A stretch of 64,000 nt of DNA, taken from the NCBI RefSeq assembly GCF_003032475.1, contig NZ_CP028369.1:2790001-2854000 (forward strand), in the 5' to 3' direction. Both the position numbers and the translations under genes were made by a program. The notes beneath the pieces were generated by a model. That model did no database searches and was not told the DNA's origin. It worked only from the letters and a program-made list of their open reading frames with translations. Positions 3,970 to 54,770 of this stretch are shown here, piece by piece; the stretch's first letter is position 1, and each line of letters begins with the position of its first letter. The DNA is from Streptomyces sp. P3. Lineage in GTDB: Bacteria; Actinomycetota; Actinomycetes; Streptomycetales; Streptomycetaceae.

Positions 3970-4027
3970 CTTGAAGATTAAATTATTTTGGAATATGCTC
4001 ATGGGCGTTGACGTTTTATATTTCAAG
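3970..4027. promoter_or_regulatory. AT-rich divergent promoter/operator for marR and dioxygenase
   Basis: This stretch is far richer in A and T than the rest of the window. It contains an imperfect inverted repeat: CTTGAAGATTAAAT at 3970-3983, and its counterpart ending in TTTCAAG at 4021-4027. TTGAA/TTCAA half-sites separated by A/T tracts are usual for MarR-family operators. It lies between the two divergent start codons, so binding would block both promoters. Confidence 0.5.
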
Positions 4028-4094
4028 CAACCGCAGTGATCGGCGTCGTCCAGGAACCGCGGCTCGGTCCGAAAGCCTGGAAGGAGTAGCTGCC

Positions 4095-4904
4095 ATGTCC
4101 GCCGCAACTCGGGAGGACACCCTCCTCCAGGAACGCATGCCCGCGCTCTACCTCAGTCATGGCGCCCCGCCGCTCGCGGACGACCCCGTCTGGCCCGGCG
4201 AACTCGCCGCATGGTCGGCCGGTCTGCCCCGTCCCAAGGCCATCCTGATGGTCTCCGCCCACTGGGAGGAGGCCCCGCTCGCCCTCGGCGCCGTCGATCC
4301 CGTCCCCCTGGTCTACGACTTCTGGGGCTTCCCCGAGCACTACTACCAGGTGAAGTACGACGCCCCCGGCGCGCCGGAGCTCGCCGAGAGCGTGCGCAAG
4401 CTGCTGCGCGCTCCGGGCATCCCCGTGCAGGACATCCCCGACCGCGGCCTCGACCACGGCGCCTACGTCCCGCTCGTCGAGATGTTCCCGGCCGCCGACA
4501 TCCCGGTCCTGCAGATCTCCATGCCGACGCTCGACCCCGTCAAGCTCATGGACATCGGCCGCAAGCTCGCCCCGCTCCGCGACGAGGGGGTCCTGATCGT
4601 CGGCTCCGGTTTCTTCACCCACAACCTGGCCGCGCTGCGTCACCCGGGCGGGGGAGTGCCCACCTGGTCCTCGGAGTTCGACGACTGGGGCCGGCGCGCA
4701 CTGGAGACGCGCGACTGGGACGGTCTGCTCGACTTCCTCCACAAGGCCCCGGCCGGCCGGTACGCCCACCCGCGCACCGAGCATTTCGCCCCGCTCTTCG
4801 TGACCATGGGCGCCGCGGAGGTGACCGGCGAACTGGACGCGCAGAGGTCCGTGATCGACGGGTTCTGGATGGGGCTGGCGAAGCGGTCGCTGCAGTTCGG
4901 CTGA
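4095..4904 (+). CDS. DODA-type (LigB-like) extradiol ring-cleavage dioxygenase
   Basis: This 269-residue enzyme belongs to the class III extradiol/4,5-DOPA dioxygenase family. The start is ATG 4095, nine bases after a perfect AAGGAG. The metal-binding His positions of the family are visible in ALYLSHGAPP (residues 18-27), MVSAHWEEAP and LDHGAYVPLVEMFP, with GSGFFTHNL towards the C-terminal half. The length is usual. It should use Fe or Zn to open catechol-type rings, but the natural substrate in Streptomyces is unknown. The divergent marR suggests induction by an aromatic compound. Confidence 0.88.
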   Translation: MSAATREDTLLQERMPALYLSHGAPPLADDPVWPGELAAWSAGLPRPKAILMVSAHWEEAPLALGAVDPVPLVYDFWGFPEHYYQVKYDAPGAPELAESVRKLLRAPGIPVQDIPDRGLDHGAYVPLVEMFPAADIPVLQISMPTLDPVKLMDIGRKLAPLRDEGVLIVGSGFFTHNLAALRHPGGGVPTWSSEFDDWGRRALETRDWDGLLDFLHKAPAGRYAHPRTEHFAPLFVTMGAAEVTGELDAQRSVIDGFWMGLAKRSLQFG

Positions 4905-5604: not shown

Positions 5605-5631
5605 GGGAATTCTGTCCTGATTCCAGTCGTT
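5605..5631 (+). promoter_or_regulatory. SigR-type promoter for hrdD
   Basis: GGGAAT at 5605-5610 is followed after exactly 18 bases by GTT at 5629-5631. This matches the published Streptomyces SigR consensus GGGAAT-N18-GTT with no mismatch. It lies about 100 bases before the hrdD start codon. From established work hrdD is a thiol-stress (SigR) target in S. coelicolor; the match here supports the same control. Confidence 0.8.
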
Positions 5632-5732
5632 GTTTCCATCAGATGCCGGGCACACGAGGAGAGTCGCAAGTTCCGAGAGTGACCGGGCGTCTGAAGGGCC
5701 ACCCGCCGAACCTCCATCGCAAGGGAGCACGC

Positions 5733-6731
5733 ATGGCAACCCGTGCCGTCGCCCGCCGCAAGTCCGCCACCGGCGAGACGAGCGGCGCGGCCCGCAGTGT
5801 TCGCGCCCATGGCGGCGAGATCGCCGACCGCGACCTGGTCGGCATGTATCTCGACGAGATCGCGCGCACACCCCTGCTCGACGCCGCGAAGGAAGTCGAG
5901 CTGTCCCAGATCATCGAGGCCGGCGTGTTCGCGCAACAGGTCCTCGACGGCGAGGAGGAGTCCAGGGCGGACGCCTCCCGCGAGGAGTTCGAGGCTCTGG
6001 TCGCGGAAAGCGAGCGGGCCAAGGACGTATTCATCCGTTCCAACCTCCGCCTGGTGGTCGCGGTCGCCCGCCGCTACCCCCGTAGCGGGCTTCCCCTCCT
6101 CGACCTCATCCAGGAGGGCAACGCGGGCCTGGTGCGCGCGGTCGAGAAGTTCGACTACCGCAAGGGCTTCAAGTTCTCCACGTACGCGACCTGGTGGATC
6201 CGTCAGGCCATCACCCGGTCGATAGCGGACCAGTCGCGCACGATCAGGCTGCCCGTCCACCTGGTGGAGGAACTCGGCCGCATCCGCCGCGTACAGCGCG
6301 AGTTCAACCGGGAGAACGGCCGTGACCCGGAGCCCGCAGAGATCGCCGCGGAGCTCGGCTCCACACCGGAGCGCGTCACCGACGTCCTGGACTGGGCCCG
6401 TGACCCGGTCTCGCTGAACATGTCGGTCGACGACCAGGGCGAGACACAGTTCGGCGACCTGCTGGAGGACACTTCCGCGGTCTCGCCCGAGCAGTCCGTC
6501 CTCACCCTGCTGCGCAGCGAGGAACTGGACGGTCTGATCGACCGTCTCGACCCGCGCACCGCCTCCATCATCAAGATGCGCTACGGCATCGACGACGGCC
6601 GCGAGCGCACTCTGACCGAGGTCGGCAAGGAGCACGGCCTGACGAGGGAGCGCATTCGTCAGATCGAGAAGCACGCCCTGCTGGAACTGAAGAAGCTGGC
6701 CCGCGACACGGGCTTCGAGGCGGCGGCGTAG
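5733..6731 (+). CDS. hrdD: RNA polymerase principal-like sigma factor HrdD
   Basis: This is a 332-residue sigma-70 group 2 factor, the length of S. coelicolor HrdD, starting with ATG after AAGGGAG. Region 1.2 is DLVGMYLDEIARTPLL. The core-binding and -10 recognition region 2 runs from SNLRLVVAVARRY through DLIQEGNAGLVRAVEKFDYRKGFKFSTYATWWIRQAI. Region 3 follows, and region 4 has TLTEVGKEHGLTRERIRQIEKHALLELK. The long acidic non-conserved region of HrdB is absent, as expected. HrdD is dispensable in known species and shares promoter specificity with HrdB. A SigR-type promoter lies upstream, so it is probably induced by thiol stress. Confidence 0.93.
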   Translation: MATRAVARRKSATGETSGAARSVRAHGGEIADRDLVGMYLDEIARTPLLDAAKEVELSQIIEAGVFAQQVLDGEEESRADASREEFEALVAESERAKDVFIRSNLRLVVAVARRYPRSGLPLLDLIQEGNAGLVRAVEKFDYRKGFKFSTYATWWIRQAITRSIADQSRTIRLPVHLVEELGRIRRVQREFNRENGRDPEPAEIAAELGSTPERVTDVLDWARDPVSLNMSVDDQGETQFGDLLEDTSAVSPEQSVLTLLRSEELDGLIDRLDPRTASIIKMRYGIDDGRERTLTEVGKEHGLTRERIRQIEKHALLELKKLARDTGFEAAA

Positions 6732-23183: not shown

Positions 23184-24026
23184 CTACGGCAGCTCGAACC
23201 CCGGGTTCATGCCGCCCAGTGCGTTGCCGCACCGGCAGTTGCGGTCCTGCGTCGACGGCAGCGCGGCCACCGCGTCGAACAGCACGCCCCGCAGCCGGTC
23301 CACGTTCGCCGCGAACACCCGCAGCACTTCCTCGTGGGAGACGCCCTCGCCGCTCTCGGCGCCCGCGTCCAGATCGGTGACCAGGGTCAACGTGGTGTAG
23401 CAGAGCTCGAGTTCACGGGCCAGCGCCGCTTCCGGGTGGCCCGTCATGCCCACCACCGACCAGCCCTGCGCCTGGTGCCACAACGATTCGGCACGGGTGG
23501 AGAACCTCGGCCCCTCGATCACGACGAGGGTTCCGGCGTCCACCGGTTCCCACTCGCGGCCGCGTGCCGCCTTGAGCGCCGCGGCCCGTCCGGTGGGGCA
23601 GTAGGGGTCGGCCAGCGACACGTGCACCACCTGGGGCACCGTGCCGTCGGGCAGCGGCAGTCCGTCGAAGTAGGTCCCGGTCCGCGACTTGGTGCGGTCG
23701 ACCAGCTGGTCGGGCACGAGGAGCGTGCCGGGCCCGTACTCGGGGCGCAGGCCGCCCACCGCGCACGGGCCGAGGACCTGACGCACCCCGACCGAGCGCA
23801 GCGCCCACAGGTTGGCGCGGTAGTTGATGCGGTGGGGCGGCAGATGGTGGCCGCGTCCGTGCCGGGGCAGGAAGGCGACCCGCCGGCCTGCCACCTCGCC
23901 GAGGAAGAGGGAGTCGCTGGGCGGTCCGTAGGGGGTGTCGACCTGGAGTTCGGTCACGTCGTCCAGGAACGAGTAGAGGCCGGATCCCCCGATGACACCG
24001 ATCTCTGCGTTCGCCTTGTTCGCCAT
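23184..24026 (-). CDS. mtnP: S-methyl-5'-thioadenosine phosphorylase
   Basis: This 280-residue PNP/MTAP-family enzyme phosphorolyses methylthioadenosine (from polyamine or autoinducer synthesis) to adenine and methylthioribose-1-phosphate. IGVIGGSGLYSFLDD (residues 9-23) is the phosphate-site start. FLPRHGRGHHLPPHRINYRANLWAL carries the family signature. VVIEGPRFSTRAESLWHQAQGWSVVGMTGHPEAALARELELCY holds the base and ribose contacts. It could also act on inosine-type nucleosides; this family is hard to split by sequence. The start is ATG 24026. Confidence 0.88.
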   Translation of the reverse strand: MANKANAEIGVIGGSGLYSFLDDVTELQVDTPYGPPSDSLFLGEVAGRRVAFLPRHGRGHHLPPHRINYRANLWALRSVGVRQVLGPCAVGGLRPEYGPGTLLVPDQLVDRTKSRTGTYFDGLPLPDGTVPQVVHVSLADPYCPTGRAAALKAARGREWEPVDAGTLVVIEGPRFSTRAESLWHQAQGWSVVGMTGHPEAALARELELCYTTLTLVTDLDAGAESGEGVSHEEVLRVFAANVDRLRGVLFDAVAALPSTQDRNCRCGNALGGMNPGFELP

Positions 24027-24111
24027 GCGTCGCACCCTAACCGCACGGCGGAACGCCGAGGACCCCGCCGTCGGACGACGACAGGGTCCCGTAAGAAAGG
24101 CGAAAGGCGTC

Positions 24112-24438
24112 CTACGCGGCGGAGCTGCTGCCGGCGGAGGTGCCGCTGCTCGACGACTTGGAGTCCGAGGACGACGACGAGCTCGTGCTCGACGACTTCG
24201 CGTCGGAACCGGACGTCGACGACTTCGAGGACGACGACGCCGGCGAGCTGCTCGACGAGGAGCCGCGGCTGTCGTTGCGGTAGAAACCGGAGCCCTTGAA
24301 GACGATGCCGACGGCGGAGAACACCTTCTTGAGGCGGCCACCGCAGTTGGGGCACTCGGTCAGGGCATCGTCGGTGAACTTCTGCACCGCCTCGAGGCCC
24401 TCGCCGCACTCGGTGCACTGGTACTGATAGGTCGGCAC
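24112..24438 (-). CDS. FmdB-type zinc-ribbon protein, Ruc-like
   Basis: This 108-residue protein begins MPTYQYQCTECG. Two CxxC pairs (Cys8-Cys11 and Cys29-Cys32) make an FmdB/CxxC_CxxC_SSSS zinc ribbon. From about residue 60 the tail is almost pure Ser with Asp, Lys, Thr and Ala. This is the architecture of the mycobacterial Rv0991c product Ruc, a redox-regulated chaperone that unfolds and becomes active when the zinc cysteines are oxidised. The GTG start has AGGAGG upstream, and a CIRCE element overlaps that region, matching HrcA control known for Rv0991c. Function by homology is inference. Confidence 0.85.
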   Translation of the reverse strand: MPTYQYQCTECGEGLEAVQKFTDDALTECPNCGGRLKKVFSAVGIVFKGSGFYRNDSRGSSSSSSPASSSSKSSTSGSDAKSSSTSSSSSSDSKSSSSGTSAGSSSAA

Positions 24439-24448
24439 TGTCTTCCTC

Positions 24449-24475
24449 CTGGCACTCTCACTCAGTGAGTGCTAA
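24449..24475 (-). promoter_or_regulatory. CIRCE element (HrcA operator) upstream of the FmdB/Ruc-like gene
   Basis: On the minus strand the sequence is TTAGCACTC, nine bases, then GAGTGCCAG. The HrcA consensus is TTAGCACTC-N9-GAGTGCTAA, so 16 of 18 arm positions match and the spacer is exact. It lies 11-37 bases before the GTG start and touches the ribosome site. HrcA binding here would give heat-shock induction together with groE. Confidence 0.85.
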
Positions 24476-24505
24476 CGACGGTCTATCTTGACGCATTCCC
24501 CGGGT

Positions 24506-25798
24506 TCAGTCCACTGTCACCGGCACGCGGTGACCGACGCCACGTGCGACGGTGCGTTCGCGGGGGCGCGTCGCCAGCCGCGACCGCAGGGCCAGCAGGG
24601 TGATCAGGGCCAGCACCGTGCCGCCCGCCGGGACCAGGAAACCGGAGCCGCCCCAGAGGCGGTCCTCGAGCTGTCCGGCGATCGTGACGGCGGCCGCCTG
24701 GCCGAGCGCCACCGCGCCGGTCAGCCAGGTGAACGCCTCCGTGCGGGCGCCGGCCGGGACCAGGCCCTCGACCAGGGTGTAGCCGGTGATCAGCGCGGGC
24801 GCGATGCACATGCCGACCAGCAGGCCGAGGCCCGCCAGCACGAGCACCGAGTGCGCCGCCCACAGCCCGGAGGCGACGAGCGCCAGCGCGGCGTAGGCGA
24901 CGACCAGACGCCGCCGCGGAGCGGCCTTCCAGGCGACGGCGCCGCAGACCAGGCCGGAGAGCATGTTGCCCGCGGCGAAGGTGCCGTAGAGGACGCCGTT
25001 GAGGCCGGGTGCGCCGATGGACTCGGTGAACGCGGCCAGCGAGACCTGCATGCCGCCGAAGACGGAGCCGATGCCCAGGAAGGTCACGACCAGCACGCGC
25101 ACACCGGGGACGCGCAGGGCCGAGGTGTGCTCCACGCGCGCGTGCCCGGCGGGGGCGACCTGGGGCTGCGTGCTCCGCTGCGCGGCGAACAGCAGCCCGC
25201 CGAGCAGGGTCAGCGAGGCCTCGGTGAGCAGACCCGCGGCCGGGTGCACGGCGGTGCACAGGGCGGTCGCGAGCAGCGGGCCCAGGACGAAGGTGAGCTC
25301 GTCGGTGACGGACTCGAAGGCGGCCGCGGTGGTCATCAGGGGCGAGCCCTTGAGCCGCACACCCCAGCGGGCCCGCACCATGGGGCCGACCTGCGGCACC
25401 GAGGCGCCCGTGGGCACGGCCGCCGCGAACACCGCCCACAGCGGCGCGTGGGCGAGGGCGAGGGTGGTGAGCGCCAGGCCCGACACGGTGTGCACGAGGA
25501 CGCCGGGGACCAGTACGGCGCGCTGCCCGTAACGGTCGGCGAGACGGCCGCTCCAGGGCGCGAACAGCGCCATGGAGACACCGGTGACGGCCGCGGCGGC
25601 GCCGGCCGCGCCGTAGGAGCCGGTGGTGTGCTGCACGAGCAGCACGATGGAGAGGGTGAGCATCGCGAACGGCTGGCGGGCGGCGAAGCCGGGCAGCAGG
25701 AACGTCCAGGCGCCGCGGGTGCGCAGCAGTTGCCCGTATCCCGGGCGGGCGGAGGCCGACGAGTCGCTCGACGGCTCGGTGGTGACCGTGGATGCCAC
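24506..25798 (-). CDS. MFS transporter, about 12 TM
   Basis: This 430-residue membrane protein starts from GTG 25798 behind AAAGG. The segments FLLPGFAARQPFAMLTLSIVLLVQH, APWSGRLADRYGQRAVLVPG (motif A) and VPQVGPMVRARW fit the DHA1-like major facilitator subgroup common in actinobacteria. The FmdB-like gene lies downstream on the same strand, but the CIRCE site in between argues for separate transcription. Substrate unknown; efflux is likely. A region of about 290 bases to the antiporter gene lies upstream. Confidence 0.85.
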   Translation of the reverse strand: MASTVTTEPSSDSSASARPGYGQLLRTRGAWTFLLPGFAARQPFAMLTLSIVLLVQHTTGSYGAAGAAAAVTGVSMALFAPWSGRLADRYGQRAVLVPGVLVHTVSGLALTTLALAHAPLWAVFAAAVPTGASVPQVGPMVRARWGVRLKGSPLMTTAAAFESVTDELTFVLGPLLATALCTAVHPAAGLLTEASLTLLGGLLFAAQRSTQPQVAPAGHARVEHTSALRVPGVRVLVVTFLGIGSVFGGMQVSLAAFTESIGAPGLNGVLYGTFAAGNMLSGLVCGAVAWKAAPRRRLVVAYAALALVASGLWAAHSVLVLAGLGLLVGMCIAPALITGYTLVEGLVPAGARTEAFTWLTGAVALGQAAAVTIAGQLEDRLWGGSGFLVPAGGTVLALITLLALRSRLATRPRERTVARGVGHRVPVTVD

Positions 25799-54694: not shown

Positions 54695-54770
54695 GCCCGC
54701 ACGTCCTCTCGCAGTTCGCCTTCGACTCCTCGGGGAACGCCCGGGGCTGGGCTGCGATTCCTTCGTCCCG

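Follow-up and report, generated by a model that had tools for sequence, protein, structure and literature searches.

A ruc/fmdB-type gene in the Streptomyces genome analyzed here carries, directly before its ribosome-binding site, an HrcA operator (CIRCE element) that overlaps an exact SigR consensus promoter. The reading that we favor, with a probability of roughly 0.78, draws on these sites and on analogy with a mycobacterial system: ruc would be started from the SigR promoter under an HrcA-bound CIRCE, with heat derepressing and disulfide stress activating the gene, and its protein would act as a redox holdase. The original prediction for this locus placed both the gene and the CIRCE at the correct coordinates; the overlapping SigR promoter is a second part that it overlooked, and the case for HrcA-controlled ruc is stronger than it had stated. 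Features are collected in Table 1, and positions refer to the window, i.e., the whole 64-kb stretch of DNA that was analyzed, where so indicated.

Table 1. Features of the ruc locus, in window positions.
Feature	Positions	Strand	Details
ruc/fmdB-type gene, 108 aa	24112..24438	(-)	zinc ribbon, residues 1-40, and Ser-rich tail
Ribosome-binding site	24443..24450	(-)	AGGAGGAA; overlaps last two CIRCE bases
CIRCE (HrcA operator, predicted)	24449..24475	(-)	TTAGCACTC-N9-GAGTGCCAG; 16/18 consensus bases
SigR-type promoter	24474..24499	(-)	-35 GGAAT 24499-24495, 18-nt spacer, -10 GTT 24476-24474
Putative superimposed housekeeping promoter	24485..24513	(-)	TGGACT 24513-24508, 17 nt, CAAGAT 24490-24485
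14-bp hairpin 3' of ruc, before MTAP gene	24059..24090	(-)	no T-run

The gene begins with GTG, and its product had been described as an FmdB/Ruc-like zinc ribbon with two CxxC pairs and a poly-Ser tail. Profile searches bear out this description: the 108-residue protein matches Zn_ribbon_8 of Pfam (E 9.2e-16) and TIGR02605, FmdB/CxxC_CxxC_SSSS (E 3.6e-21), both above the curated cut-offs, with cysteines at positions 8, 11, 29, and 32 and serine at 32 of the last 50 residues. The zinc ribbon is a known fold, and disorder is to be expected of a Ser-rich tail; the C-terminal tail found here is hydrophilic and of disordered type, judged by composition alone. The search for PDB relatives returned none with a meaningful E-value (best E 1.2). 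Among the best 120 of 8000 scored homologues, all named organisms are Streptomyces, and the four cysteines lie at identical positions in 60/60 orthologues sampled from the class. From gene order, the S. coelicolor locus is tentatively SCO3187, for which no mention was found in the open-access papers searched.

The protein resembles M. tuberculosis Ruc (Rv0991c) in its MPTY N-terminus, in a zinc-ribbon N-terminal part with cysteines 8, 11, 29, and 32 (numbers taken from primer names), and in a disordered, hydrophilic C-terminus (PMC7448276). A mycobacterial relative (L160, which is not Rv0991c itself) is identical to the Streptomyces protein at 39 of 58 N-terminal residues, while the tail sequence and the CIRCE spacer differ between Streptomyces and mycobacterial Ruc. 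Judged by sequence, the gene is the Streptomyces ortholog of ruc. Its product is probably an oxidation-activated holdase chaperone, in analogy to the M. tuberculosis protein, whose cysteines bind zinc and whose oxidized form prevents aggregation of a model protein (PMC7448276), and zinc binding and oxidation-activated anti-aggregation activity can thus be predicted for it. As several close homologues are annotated as FmdB family transcriptional regulators, the protein might instead be a regulator of that type, as many database names have it. We consider this improbable, because such names are transferred labels, the M. tuberculosis relative showed chaperone activity (PMC7448276), an operator held in common with groES, groEL, and hrcA-dnaJ fits protein quality control, and zinc ribbons were the only families above curated cut-offs among the best 25 of 37 Pfam matches and in the TIGR02605 search.

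A near-perfect CIRCE directly before the ribosome site had been predicted, and it is present as described. Read 5' to 3', the minus strand from 24475 to 24449 is TTAGCACTC-ACTGAGTGA-GAGTGCCAG, a 9-9-9 inverted repeat that lies 10 nt 5' of the GTG start and has two mismatches to the consensus TTAGCACTC-N9-GAGTGCTAA. It is the sole match at up to three mismatches in the window, and 100 dinucleotide shuffles gave none. The two mismatches might be taken to mark a decayed or non-functional site, but this is highly improbable, since both GCACTC/GAGTGC cores are exact and retained across the family, and the elements of this genome that precede groES, groEL, and hrcA show one to three mismatches each. 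The spacer of the element (24458-24466) repeats a GAGTGA/GAGTCA half-site in 29/31 fetched Streptomyces loci, giving a nested, shorter inverted repeat. This third GAGTG half-site was considered as a feature and set aside because some Streptomyces lack it (ACCGAAGCA, CACAGGGAA).

Just upstream, the promoter before ruc is an exact match to the published SigR consensus, GGAATN18GTT (PMC2375139), which is also given in the form GGAAT-N18-19-GTT (PMC9205884). The TT of its -10 box GTT is common to the CIRCE, and with two bases shared, HrcA and SigR polymerase could not easily bind together. The SigR input to ruc may already stand in published lists of SigR targets.

Genes of the HrcA and of the SigR-RsrA type are both found in this genome. 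HrcA is present (PF01628, E 2.6e-59), and when up to three mismatches are allowed, the whole genome (9.85 Mb) contains six CIRCE sites. The other five precede groES (two), a second groEL (two), and hrcA-dnaJ (one, with three mismatches), targets that were identified by profile searches for the Cpn10, Cpn60, DnaJ, and HrcA families; ruc is therefore the sole non-classical CIRCE target found in the genome. Its operator is the same as that of the groES, groEL, and hrcA-dnaJ regulon of actinobacteria, but ruc differs from these classical targets in that a search up to 250 nt from each of the other CIRCE sites gave no SigR-type motif. The genome also encodes RsrA (TIGR03988, above the cut-off), next to an ORF with sigma-70 regions 2 and 4. 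The pattern GGAAT-N18-GTT matches 76 times, compared to nine matches for a reversed control pattern, and two of its sites served as positive controls, both being expected SigR targets: one at 759223-759198, 5' of the sigma-70 ORF (regions 2 and 4) adjoining rsrA, and one at window 5606-5631 on the plus strand, 5' of an ORF (5643-6731) for a primary-type sigma factor that is presumably HrdD-like. hrdD is a known SigR target (PMC9205884). Relative to the SigR regulon of Streptomyces coelicolor, ruc shares the exact GGAATN18GTT promoter and is set apart by the position of that promoter under an HrcA operator.

These elements suggest how the gene could be controlled. HrcA bound to the CIRCE would block the SigR -10 box and the start site; heat or unfolded protein would remove HrcA and so derepress the gene, and disulfide stress would free SigR from RsrA and so activate it, in keeping with the release of SigR upon RsrA oxidation (PMC5472188). 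Both signals would be needed for full ruc expression. As protein damage would remove HrcA and thiol oxidation would supply SigR, the chaperone would be made most when both occur, and its highest synthesis would coincide with the conditions able to switch it on by oxidation. The same arrangement is described for M. tuberculosis ruc, which is HrcA-repressed and SigH-induced, its HrcA site and its ECF sigma promoter overlapping each other (PMC7448276), and the Streptomyces gene is thus most likely the same device, with SigR in place of its ortholog SigH. We infer HrcA-dependent expression and redox chaperone activity in Streptomyces from this analogy. The control of Streptomyces ruc is a known kind of system and no new mechanism, and as such it is well supported.

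To assess how far the arrangement extends among close relatives, we surveyed Streptomyces and family genomes for the two sites. The CIRCE core together with an MP-T-Y protein start was found in 196/199 Streptomyces (193/194 good-quality genomes), and the composite GGAAT-N17-19-GTT-N-CIRCE core in 189/199 (186/194 good-quality genomes), once per genome in the Streptomyces that matched and with a SigR spacer of 18 nt in nearly all of the matches listed. Across the family, CIRCE and start occur in 145/150 genomes and 15/16 genera, so that the motif, whose loss in close relatives was to count against the original prediction, is retained. Since the CIRCE is kept in this way and the genome has an hrcA gene, membership of ruc in the Streptomyces HrcA regulon, as the original prediction proposed, is supported as the best reading. 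The SigR-CIRCE composite (with a gap of 1-4 nt) is present in 116/150 family genomes and 13/16 genera; the exact form is missing in 34/150, and these misses cluster in few genera. In one genus (g323), the 30 fetched loci have a -35 box of GGAAT in nine and GAAAT in 21, and the GTT is kept in 30/30. In Streptomyces, conservation of the SigR boxes does not exceed that of much of their spacer, and the count for this genus alone therefore cannot separate selection from shared descent. One family genome (G830 of genus g319, family f1) has two composites with starts, on contigs 4 and 11, which is possibly a duplication of ruc or of the assembly.

The spacer itself contains a second conserved pattern. 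The columns CA--AT-G are invariant in 52/52 distinct family spacers, in which other columns vary, as well as in 30/30 loci of genus g323 and in 40/40 distinct spacers of all fetched loci, three sets that overlap and the first of which was copied by hand. T[TG]GAC occurs 16-19 nt upstream of CA--AT-G in 30/31 Streptomyces loci, and together these elements tentatively resemble the -10 and -35 boxes of a sigma-70 promoter superimposed on the SigR promoter, perhaps a weaker one that would give basal output in the derepressed state. The putative -35 and the end of the upstream MFS gene coincide in part, and this overlap may be why the element is conserved. We keep the housekeeping promoter tentative because a stricter sigma-70 consensus scan of 23900-24700 found none; the same scan found no T-run terminator. 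If HrcA alone controlled ruc from a housekeeping promoter, the SigR-like boxes would be coincidence or a relic, and the two conserved elements at sigma-70 spacing would be as expected, as would the occurrence of CIRCE without a strict SigR motif in most of the class lineages sampled. Nonetheless, we regard HrcA control of this kind as unlikely. The exact SigR consensus, with a spacer of 17-19 nt, is found in the great majority of Streptomyces as given above; it recurs at ruc in mycobacteria, Nonomuraea, Nocardioides, and Cellulomonas in other registers; the M. tuberculosis ortholog is induced by SigH (PMC7448276); and CA--AT is itself broken in at least one of the Streptomyces composites listed (G049) and the following G in at least four (G047, G105, G183, and G197). 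Control by both HrcA and SigR thus remains the reading that we prefer.

Around the coding region, the RNA structure of the 51-nt 5' leader is nothing unusual (z = 0.43). The 14-bp hairpin that follows the stop codon could act as a terminator that separates ruc from the MTAP gene behind it, and ruc may accordingly have a transcript of its own.

Beyond Streptomyces, the gene was found in 244/246 genomes of the class, and its CIRCE is widespread in related families and not special to Streptomyces, a point that the original prediction also overlooked. We sampled 60 class loci outside Streptomyces (52 genera), which come from the better-matching part of a score-ordered listing, so that families with weaker matches are hardly represented. 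Within this set of more similar orthologues, a CIRCE of at least 14/18 lies within 300 nt in 55/60 loci (22 families, 47 genera) and in the nearest 160 nt in 54/60, and one more locus has it 147 nt from the start; the best score in 1200 mononucleotide shuffles was 13/18 in the 160-nt scan. The five ruc loci without CIRCE (L100, L103, L139, L141, and L147) are in genomes that encode HrcA, as do 60/60 of those sampled, and loss of HrcA therefore does not explain them; a few lineages may have lost control by HrcA. In a phylum-wide sample, a stricter CIRCE core matched in 40/396 genomes, comprising 20 Streptomyces (20/20 sampled), five more genomes of the same class, and 15 that belong to different classes, and this is an undercount because the stricter core misses the GCAGTC variant, which makes up 32/55 left arms of the class CIRCE elements. 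We fetched ten of the 20 matches outside Streptomyces, and each of the ten encodes a Ruc-type protein whose tail is Ser-rich.

The SigR motif is distributed differently. In its strict form, it lies just upstream of the CIRCE in 5/5 loci of one family (f3), which we take as the mycobacteria because named mycobacterial records have the same composite, and in 5/50 other class loci (shuffle control for these 50: mean 0.01, maximum 1); with the motif missing in 45/50, SigR input cannot be called general. We also scanned named genomes for composites whose GTT-to-GCA gap was 2-12 nt and obtained at least 118 stretches; of these 118, 96 are directly before a Ruc-type start and 22 are not. Names are available for 80 of the stretches listed, and 67 of these are directly before a Ruc-type start, mostly in Mycobacterium, Mycolicibacterium, Mycolicibacter, and Nonomuraea, and also in Nocardioides, Cellulomonas, one Streptomyces, and some unplaced Actinomycetota. 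The 13 named negatives listed include 12 from other phyla and one from Actinomycetota (L186), and among the other nine negatives, at least two (L265 and L269) carry the mycobacterial composite, with no start found by the pattern used. The gap among the 96 is 3 nt in 64, 7 nt in 23, 11 nt in five, and 2 nt in four. It is usually 3 nt in mycobacterial records, compared to 1 nt in most Streptomyces.

Such a distribution lends itself to an evolutionary reading, which we put forward with somewhat less than even confidence, lowered in view of the class sample having been drawn from the better-matching loci. HrcA control of ruc may be an old, near-fixed trait of the class Actinomycetes, extending to other classes of the phylum, in which the promoter under the operator is exchangeable, being of housekeeping type in most families and of SigR/SigH type in others, and joined to the CIRCE in different registers (a GTT-to-GCA gap of 1 nt in most Streptomycetaceae, 3 nt in most mycobacteria, and 7 nt in Nonomuraea and Cellulomonas). 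Because the registers differ, the two-signal gate for heat and thiol stress at ruc would have come together, or been readjusted, on more than one occasion, and Streptomyces would have two promoters superimposed under a single operator.

Hsp33 is the usual redox holdase. We found it in none of the 41 Streptomyces genomes searched (0/41), which fits Ruc filling the Hsp33 role. An anticorrelation with Hsp33 has been reported for Ruc, which is likewise described as a redox-switched zinc holdase (PMC7448276); the two are unrelated in sequence. If our favored reading is true, the core stress network of Streptomyces would include a redox-switched chaperone, which would suggest how these bacteria cope in the absence of Hsp33, and a likely function could be assigned to a gene that mostly goes by the name of FmdB family protein or regulator. 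Moreover, Streptomyces would offer a harmless, tractable host for the study of one promoter that combines heat (HrcA) and disulfide (SigR) signals. The original prediction knew of no description of the CIRCE-ruc arrangement in Streptomyces, and we similarly found none in the open-access papers searched, where no paper links HrcA or SigR with FmdB in Streptomyces, or FmdB with HrcA; the main text of the Ruc paper (PMC7448276) contains neither the word Streptomyces nor FmdB (0 occurrences each).

Two further exact SigR consensus sites occur in the window. One, at 3990-4015 on the plus strand, is near the start of a 4,5-DOPA-dioxygenase-like ORF (4008-4904, below the family cut-off), which is possibly a further SigR target. 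The other, at 54736-54761 on the minus strand, lies approximately 40 nt before a minus-strand GTG (54694), and on visual inspection the frame from this GTG resembles a serine hydrolase of beta-lactamase type.
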